Assembly: GCF_000007305.1 (NCBI RefSeq)
Contig: NC_003413.1
Coordinates: 1,421,318-1,485,317, forward strand
Length of the DNA: 64,000 nt
Direction of reading: 5' to 3'
Origin: Pyrococcus furiosus DSM 3638
Lineage (GTDB): Archaea > Methanobacteriota_B > Thermococci > Thermococcales > Thermococcaceae
In this document: piece after piece, positions 42,048 to 63,198 of the stretch
How the letters are laid out: each line of letters begins with the position of its first letter
Position numbering within the stretch: position 1 is the stretch's first letter
The notes under the pieces: generated by a model
What the model was told of the DNA's origin: nothing
The model's input: only the letters and a program-made list of their open reading frames with translations
Databases searched by the model: none
Program-made: the position numbers and the translations under genes

Positions 42048-42124
42048 TGGAGCCCCGGCCGGGCTTTGAACCCGGGACCTGCCGCTTACCAAGCGGCCGC
42101 TCTACCAGGCTGAGCCACCGGGGC
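42048..42124 (-). tRNA. tRNA-Thr (anticodon GGT)
   Basis: 5' GCCCCGG pairs with CCGGGGC, discriminator T, then encoded CCA (42048-42050). Anticodon stem GCCGC/GCGGC encloses TTGGTAA, anticodon GGT. T loop GGTTCAAAG. A TATA-like CTTATATATCC lies at about 42151-42160 (minus strand). Confidence 0.96.
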
Positions 42125-42816: not shown

Positions 42817-42894
42817 TGGTGGGGCCGCCGGGATTTGAACCCGGGTCACGGGCTCCCAAAGCCCGCAGGATGGGCCAAGCTACCCTACGGCCCC
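42817..42894 (-). tRNA. tRNA-Pro (anticodon TGG)
   Basis: 5' GGGGCCG pairs with CGGCCCC, discriminator A, then encoded CCA (42817-42819). Anticodon stem CGGGC/GCCCG encloses TTTGGGA, anticodon TGG. T arm CCGGG-TTCAAAT-CCCGG. It begins only 2 bp after the CCA of the preceding tRNA-Thr. Confidence 0.96.
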
Positions 42895-42896
42895 AT

Positions 42897-42973
42897 TGGA
42901 GCCCGGGGCGGGATTTGAACCCGCGACCTGGGGATTACAAGTCCCCCGCCCCACCAGGCTAGGCTACCCGGGC
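42897..42973 (-). tRNA. tRNA-Thr (anticodon TGT)
   Basis: 5' GCCCGGG pairs with CCCGGGC, discriminator T, then encoded CCA (42897-42899). Anticodon stem GGGGA/TCCCC encloses CTTGTAA, anticodon TGT. Leads a tandem with tRNA-Pro. Confidence 0.96.
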
Positions 42974-62384: not shown

Positions 62385-63140
62385 ATGAGGATTGGAGTAA
62401 TAGGAAACTTGACAATCGATATAGTTAATGGGAATAGAAAGCCTGGGGGAGGGGCATATTATTCTGGACTAGTATTATCGAAATTTGCGAAGGTAACGAT
62501 ATATACAAAAATAGGGCCAGAATACCCTAAAGAGTGGATTGAAAATATAGAAAGCTTCACCAAAGTTGTGCCATTTGAAGGAAGCTCAACCACAACTTTT
62601 GAGCTCCTATATTCTGGGGACAGAAGGGAGATTAAAGTAGTCTCTAAGGGAGATAAATTCACTTACGAGGAGCTTGAGACAGTCAGTGAGAAAGAGGTAA
62701 TCATAAATCCGGTCGCGAACGAAATAAAACCTAAAAATGTTTATATGTTTGAAAGACCATTCTTAGATATTCAAGGATTCGTTAGACAGCTTGATAGAGT
62801 TGTAACATTGAAAAGAATTGAAGGGAAATTTTTGGAAAACGCGTTTGTTGTTCATGCTTCAAAGGAAGAATACTCAATGATAAAAAACCCAGGAACTCCA
62901 GAAATTTTAGCTATTACGGATGGGTCAAAAGAAGGAGTAGTAATAACAAAAGGTGAGAAAATTAAATTTATACCAAAACAAATCGATGTTAAAGACCCAA
63001 CTGGTGCTGGCGACTGCTTCTTAGCTCTTCTCGCTTATAGTGCTAGAAGATATAACTTACAAAAGGCCATTGAATTTACACTGGATGAAACTGCAAAGTT
63101 TTTGAAGTTAGGACTAGAGAAGTATTTAGAGGAGCAATGA
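62385..63140 (+). CDS. PfkB family carbohydrate kinase
   Basis: 251 residues, shorter than most PfkB kinases (about 300). N-terminal MRIGVIGNLTIDIVNG, GGGAYYSGLVLSKF, and the C-terminal anion-hole/base motif VKDPTGAGDCFLALL (about 204-218, catalytic Asp in GAGD) are present. The lid region is reduced. Substrate not deducible. The stop codon lies inside the C box of a guide RNA (63137). Confidence 0.88.
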   Translation: MRIGVIGNLTIDIVNGNRKPGGGAYYSGLVLSKFAKVTIYTKIGPEYPKEWIENIESFTKVVPFEGSSTTTFELLYSGDRREIKVVSKGDKFTYEELETVSEKEVIINPVANEIKPKNVYMFERPFLDIQGFVRQLDRVVTLKRIEGKFLENAFVVHASKEEYSMIKNPGTPEILAITDGSKEGVVITKGEKIKFIPKQIDVKDPTGAGDCFLALLAYSARRYNLQKAIEFTLDETAKFLKLGLEKYLEEQ

Positions 63141-63186
63141 TGAAGCCTCGATTGGCTGATTTGATGATTGGGAGGGACTTGGCTGA
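63137..63186 (+). ncRNA. C/D box guide RNA (archaeal sRNA, 2'-O-methylation)
   Basis: Boxes in order: C box ATGATGA (63137-63143), 12-nt guide (63144-63155), D' box CTGA (63156-63159), C' box TGATGA (63162-63167), 15-nt guide (63168-63182), D box CTGA (63183-63186). Spacing and box sequences fit archaeal C/D sRNAs, which pair with L7Ae, Nop5 and fibrillarin. By the D+5 rule the guides would methylate U in CCAAUCGAGGCU and G in CCAAGUCCCUCCCAA. It overlaps the PfkB stop and ends just before the Nudix ribosome site. The same DNA could encode an 18-residue peptide, which I consider less likely. Confidence 0.8.
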
Positions 63187-63198
63187 GCGGTGATTAAA

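Follow-up and report, generated by a model that had tools for sequence, protein, structure and literature searches.

Overlaps between C/D box guide RNAs and protein-coding genes have been described in archaea: one study reports stop codons overlapping C boxes and start regions overlapping guide RNAs (PMC7994747). In the six Pyrobaculum species treated in the same study, most rRNA guides are dual, with their sites within 100 nt (PMC7994747), and predicted methylation in archaea is reported to have hot spots in domain II, at helices 35 and 35a (PMC4644070, PMC7994747). The closest described relative of the RNA considered here is that of Thermococcus kodakarensis. Its sR61 is a circular RNA of 62 nt with its junction from 2070055 to 2070116 (± 5 nt), for which 100,212 aligned and 92 circular reads were obtained from the wild type, and 31,284 and 0, respectively, from an RNA-ligase knockout (PMC9014305). 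The corresponding RNA also appears in transcript data, where two lists of the 25 transcripts with the most reads include the TK2284 entry "Tko-sR67 + 7, 8-dihydro-8-oxoguanine-triphosphatase", and where Tko-sR67 was located in the 5′-terminal region of the TK2284 transcript (PMC4247193).

The RNA analyzed here lies in a window of 64,000 nt from Pyrococcus furiosus DSM 3638, between a gene for a PfkB-family kinase and one for a Nudix protein. Among the relatives used for comparison, genome G046 is presumably that of T. kodakarensis KOD1. Its rRNA positions agree with the coordinates in Table 1 of the circular RNA study (PMC9014305), and its match to the Rfam family sR20 (2070061-2070115, minus strand) lies inside the published sR61, alias Tko-sR67. 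The orthologue, and the fact that it leads the Nudix transcript, have therefore already been seen.

The guide RNA at the PfkB-Nudix junction and its relatives

The covariance model of sR20 (RF01140) matched the window at 63133-63188 on the plus strand with 64.4 bits (E = 1.5e-11), which is above the curated cut-off of 44 bits. Beyond this match, four tRNAs were all that exceeded an Rfam cut-off in the window; tRNA-Pro (TGG) and tRNA-Thr (TGT) are adjacent on the minus strand (42817-42973), with tRNA-Thr (GGT) nearby (42048-42124). Direct reading of the plus strand confirmed the four boxes as the original prediction had placed them: C (ATGATGA, 63137-63143), D′ (CTGA, 63156-63159), C′ (TGATGA, 63162-63167), and D (CTGA, 63183-63186), in this order and with guide spacing. 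The D′ guide, GCCTCGATTGG, occupies 63145-63155, and the D guide, GGGAGGGACTTGG, 63170-63182. A strict four-box pattern occurred once in the window, both strands considered, and not once in 100 first-order Markov sequences of window length. Folding of three sequences revealed no excess folding energy (z = 0.78).

The RNA is wedged tightly between its neighbors. The upstream PfkB gene (62385-63140, plus strand) is supported by a partial match to Pfam PF00294 over cut-off, and its stop codon TGA (63138-63140) falls in the C box. The downstream gene (Pfam PF00293; 63199-63708, plus strand) likely starts at ATG 63199 rather than at the listed GTG 63190, because the first methionine of its relatives aligns there. 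Its Shine-Dalgarno sequence, GGTGAT (63189-63194), begins 2 nt past the D box, and the 3′ strand of a terminal stem (63187-63188 paired) continues directly into it (63187-63194).

The distribution of this arrangement was followed in class-level searches of 115 genomes, which were centered on the genome of L001, the sole Thermococci-titled locus among the matches listed (at least 80 Nudix loci). The sR20 model matched with E ≤ 0.001 in 45 genomes and exceeded its cut-off in nine, all nine matches being flanked by PfkB and Nudix homologues. Of 21 weaker matches inspected as loci (L090-L110), 14 were located before a Nudix gene and seven elsewhere. At L081, an Rfam sR18 C/D box RNA (255-310) is encoded on the strand opposite to the sR20 copy, at a distance of ∼1.2 kb and near a tRNA (580-654). 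A Nudix homologue was matched in 103 of the 115 genomes, and the stretch upstream of it was examined in 86 of these (the 17 omitted were the lowest-scoring), using a pattern that allowed one-letter box changes. A four-box RNA was recognized in 67 of the 86, nine times with the D′ guide of the window (Pyrococcus-type) and 58 times with another (Thermococcus-type); of the 77 genomes outside the Pyrococcus-type, 58 thus have an orthologue with the other D′ guide in front of the same Nudix gene. The pattern recognized no copy upstream of the Nudix gene in the other 19 of the 86 genomes, which, inspected by eye, contained a decayed or atypical copy (eight genomes), a contig cut short (one), or nothing (10). 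A PfkB homologue is located upstream in 9/9 Pyrococcus-type and 54/58 Thermococcus-type cases; the C box is exact in 9/9 and 43/58 copies, and the D box in 7/9 and 48/58, respectively. Thermococcus-type copies stayed under the Rfam cut-off in the class search, and neither of two passed it in a separate test; at its cut-off, the sR20 model therefore misses orthology that is visible by synteny. Searches of plasmids returned two weak Nudix matches, and those of phages none.

Bases following the D box pair with bases preceding the C box, with one base skipped. This terminal stem comprises 2 bp in the window but at least 3 bp in 8/9 Pyrococcus-type and 57/58 Thermococcus-type copies (65/67 relatives); its bases are CC/GG in the Thermococcus-type and mostly CGC/GCG in the Pyrococcus-type. 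According to the T. kodakarensis report, 16 of 17 non-circular guides have two pairs or fewer (PMC9014305), and because its own stem has 2 bp, the RNA of the window may likewise be non-circular. With respect to transcription, a crude test, which looked for a strict TATA-like hexamer in the stretch 18-50 nt before the C box, was positive in 33/58 Thermococcus-type copies but in 0/9 of the Pyrococcus-type, and it was negative for the window. Judged from these upstream sequences, many Thermococcus copies likely have their own promoter, and those of Pyrococcus are likely co-transcribed with PfkB. The original prediction, which required the RNA to be excised from the coding transcript or produced by read-through, fits the Pyrococcus-type copies but need not hold for Thermococcus-type copies with the hexamer. 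In the window, the RNA would most likely ride on the PfkB-Nudix transcript and then be cut out; the hexamer in 33/58 Thermococcus-type copies implies that the Nudix transcript can begin with this RNA there, as published for T. kodakarensis, and in that genus the Nudix mRNA could also carry it as a 5′ leader.

Overlap with the ribosome site of the Nudix gene

This proximity raises a tentative, rather less probable reading, namely that the element is also, or instead, a cis-acting leader of the Nudix gene: an L7Ae-bound k-turn and the stem would hide the Shine-Dalgarno sequence, excision would remove it, and guide production would compete with translation. An SD-like run (GGTG, GCGGTG, or GCGGGTG) directly follows the D box in 56/58 Thermococcus-type and 9/9 Pyrococcus-type copies, its first bases being paired with the 5′ strand, and the 3′ bases of the stem hold or touch the Nudix Shine-Dalgarno sequence in the relatives' copies. 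In the window copy, the Shine-Dalgarno sequence adjoins the C/D k-turn, as such a leader calls for; however, the stem has only 2 bp there, and the Shine-Dalgarno sequence lies beyond the paired bases. The distance from the D box to the ATG is 9-13 nt in 62 of 67 copies; in the remaining five it is 22-24 nt, with a second SD-like run nearer to the start, which speaks against a leader function. The published T. kodakarensis circle ends ∼2 nt before the AUG and hence includes the Shine-Dalgarno sequence (with junctions given to ± 5 nt), which is in line with its removal by excision. There is precedent for either kind of effect: L7Ae represses its own mRNA by way of a 5′-UTR k-turn, for which the authors propose masking of the Shine-Dalgarno sequence (PMC5539422), and 5′ overlaps reduced reporter transcription (PMC7994747). 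That TK2284 is among the most-read transcripts counts against this reading, but the reads may be those of the guide RNA itself.

A broader version of this reading would apply to all Thermococcales. One transcript would act as an rRNA guide and also provide the ribosome-binding leader of a Nudix gene (8-oxo-dGTPase-like). Nudix translation would be shut off when the guide RNP is assembled or excised, and one guide would have been swapped between genera with the arrangement kept. We consider it unlikely that all of this applies. If it did, clean-up of the nucleotide pool would be tied to ribosome production; in any case, the locus offers a simple test of whether a guide RNA and its carrier mRNA compete for the same bases.

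Predicted rRNA targets and exchange of one guide

Targets of the guides were scored on the rRNA (16S and 23S) of seven relatives rather than on that of the source genome. The methylated nucleotide is the one paired to the fifth base upstream of the D or D′ box. The D′ guide, GCCTCGATTGG, forms 11 mismatch-free Watson-Crick pairs with CCAAUCGAGGC of 23S rRNA in 7/7 relatives, a length reached anywhere in the 16S and 23S rRNA of the Pyrococcus-type genome G028 by 0.27% of 20,000 shuffled guides (P = 0.0027). It is thus predicted to direct 2′-O-methylation of the U at the fifth base of CCAAUCGAGGC, which is position 926 of the G028 23S rRNA and, in an alignment with a 23S copy of E. coli, falls at position 787. 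We take this site to be near U790 in standard E. coli numbering, and it may match Um898 of yeast exactly. In the yeast 25S rRNA, a cluster of methylation sites extends from Gm805 to Gm908.

The D guide pairs less extensively. Its part GAGGGACTT forms nine pairs with AAGUCCCUC of 23S rRNA in 7/7 relatives, 85 nt upstream of the D′ site, and the predicted product is Gm at the G of GAAGUCCC, i.e., G841 in G028, aligned to position 707 of the E. coli copy. A match of nine pairs is reached rRNA-wide in 9.7% of shuffles (P = 0.097), and taken alone the 23S match of the D guide is weak; within ∼100 nt of the D′ site, only 0.18% of 50,000 shuffles reach it (P = 0.0018). Of the targets originally proposed, matches of at least 9 bases in the 23S rRNA of relatives stand for both guides, but the length of 15 nt given for the D target does not, as 9 nt pair and the whole 15-nt sequence was not found in the rRNA of the seven relatives. 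The two guides would direct ribose methylation at two 23S sites 85 nt apart.

It is conceivable, but in our judgment quite improbable, that the target of the Pyrococcus D guide is not in 23S rRNA but in 16S rRNA, at AGUCCCUCCC (position 1083 in G028). The guide of the window forms 10 contiguous pairs with this site in 5/5 Pyrococcus-type 16S rRNAs, in the same register at position 1083 or 1084, and nowhere in the G028 rRNA does the D guide match over more than these 10 nt, compared with nine in 23S. The match is, however, shortened by two Pyrococcus-type guides (those of G028 and G030), and the 16S site can itself pair with GGGAGG slightly downstream. What also counts against it is its absence from 2/2 Thermococcus-type 16S rRNAs checked, despite the fact that 43/58 such copies retain the GGGACTT core; because of this absence, the 16S site is held less likely than that in 23S rRNA.

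Returning to the 23S sites, the D′ guide of the Thermococcus-type, ACGUCAGCA(C/U)(G/A), forms 10 pairs with GUGCUGACGU of the KOD1 23S rRNA, which lies between the two sites predicted for the window; the nucleotide predicted to be modified is C861. The other methylation predicted for KOD1 23S rRNA is at G825, both positions being counted from the model match. Where this guide varies, the rRNA varies with it: guide C coincides with a G in 23S rRNA in 27/27 genomes and guide U with an A in 20/20, i.e., in agreement in 47/47 (65 genomes carry the Thermococcus-type guide by pattern, of which 18 without the 23S piece were left out). On a tree of PfkB proteins (55 rows, built by a quick method), the guide letter switches three times and the rRNA letter four, with one independent pair on starred, i.e., well supported, branches. 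The agreement of 47 rows therefore rests on few events (∼3), which are too few for a sign test. A second letter of the 23S target is C in 47/47 genomes with the Thermococcus-type guide and U in 8/8 of the Pyrococcus-type for which a 23S piece was at hand; of six genomes that lack the RNA here, four have U and two have C (the sixth, G101, having been read by eye). This pattern is consistent with a loosened constraint in genomes that lack the guide, again with few independent events. In the 23S rRNA of G098, G101, G102, and G106 (L243, L249, L242, and L244, respectively), four genomes with no copy of the RNA at the Nudix locus, U replaces C in the Thermococcus-type target, as in the Pyrococcus-type.

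The D guide is less uniform within the Thermococcus-type: its exact core GGGACTT is missing in 15/58 copies, six of which keep GAGACTT. In L128, L131, L132, L133, L135, L143, L160, and L163, the D guide lacks the core and the D′ guide is retained; judged from its letters, the D guide may be drifting or retargeted in these loci. A second copy of the window's D′ guide was also sought elsewhere, but the pattern hit the nine Pyrococcus-type loci and six other genomes, and the hits in those six lacked a C box. A search of 14 genomes for a displaced Thermococcus-type guide hit 35 places, with no C/D RNA at the six loci inspected. A pair of such places in G098 (L282:1470-2220) is a repeat-spacer-like stretch resembling CRISPR DNA, occurring twice, 667 bases apart.

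Guide rearrangement in general has already been described (PMC4644070). Two modest additions are made here, namely the exchange of a guide at a locus that stays in place and the conserved use of the same bases by the RNA and the ribosome site of the Nudix gene; neither is claimed to be unpublished, no literature search having been aimed at either. The locus provides a well supported case in which the genomic place of a guide RNA is fixed, one guide is exchanged, and guide and rRNA letters change together.

Identity of the RNA and comparison with known systems

Taken together, the family match, the boxes, synteny, rRNA complementarity, and the published small-RNA data from T. kodakarensis back the identification as a C/D box guide RNA, and we hold it to be almost certain that the element is an sR20-type RNA of Thermococcales, predicted to guide methylation of 23S rRNA. 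L7Ae, Nop5, and fibrillarin would assemble on its C/D and C′/D′ motifs. The original prediction had named three absences that would count against it, i.e., of any match of at least 9 bases, of a small RNA, and of conservation in sister Pyrococcus genomes, and all three are contradicted by the relatives. That the boxes are a chance run of letters at a gene junction, with parts supplied by the stop codon TGA and the Shine-Dalgarno sequence, is already refuted by the Rfam E value of 1.5e-11, by the 0 hits in 100 simulated windows, by the conservation of the element and the agreement of guide with target, and by the RNA published from T. kodakarensis; its probability is negligible.

The RNA of the window is an ordinary guide RNA, already catalogued and of a known kind. 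It matches sR20 over its full length and above cut-off, carries the boxes of this archaeal C/D box family, and shows no notable difference from it; it is the Thermococcus-type orthologues that score under the cut-off. With sR61/Tko-sR67 of T. kodakarensis, published as a circularized small RNA, it shares the gene junction, the core of the D guide, and the boxes, but it differs in the D′ guide and its 23S target, and the T. kodakarensis RNA has an upstream TATA-like box and a longer terminal stem. Its two 23S sites, 85 nt apart, show the same pattern as the dual guides of Pyrobaculum (PMC7994747). Finally, the k-turn beside a Shine-Dalgarno sequence is a likeness to the L7Ae-bound k-turns in archaeal 5′ UTRs (that of l7ae and others); for those, regulation has been demonstrated, whereas in the window the likeness is one of sequence, and the k-turn is part of a complete guide RNA.
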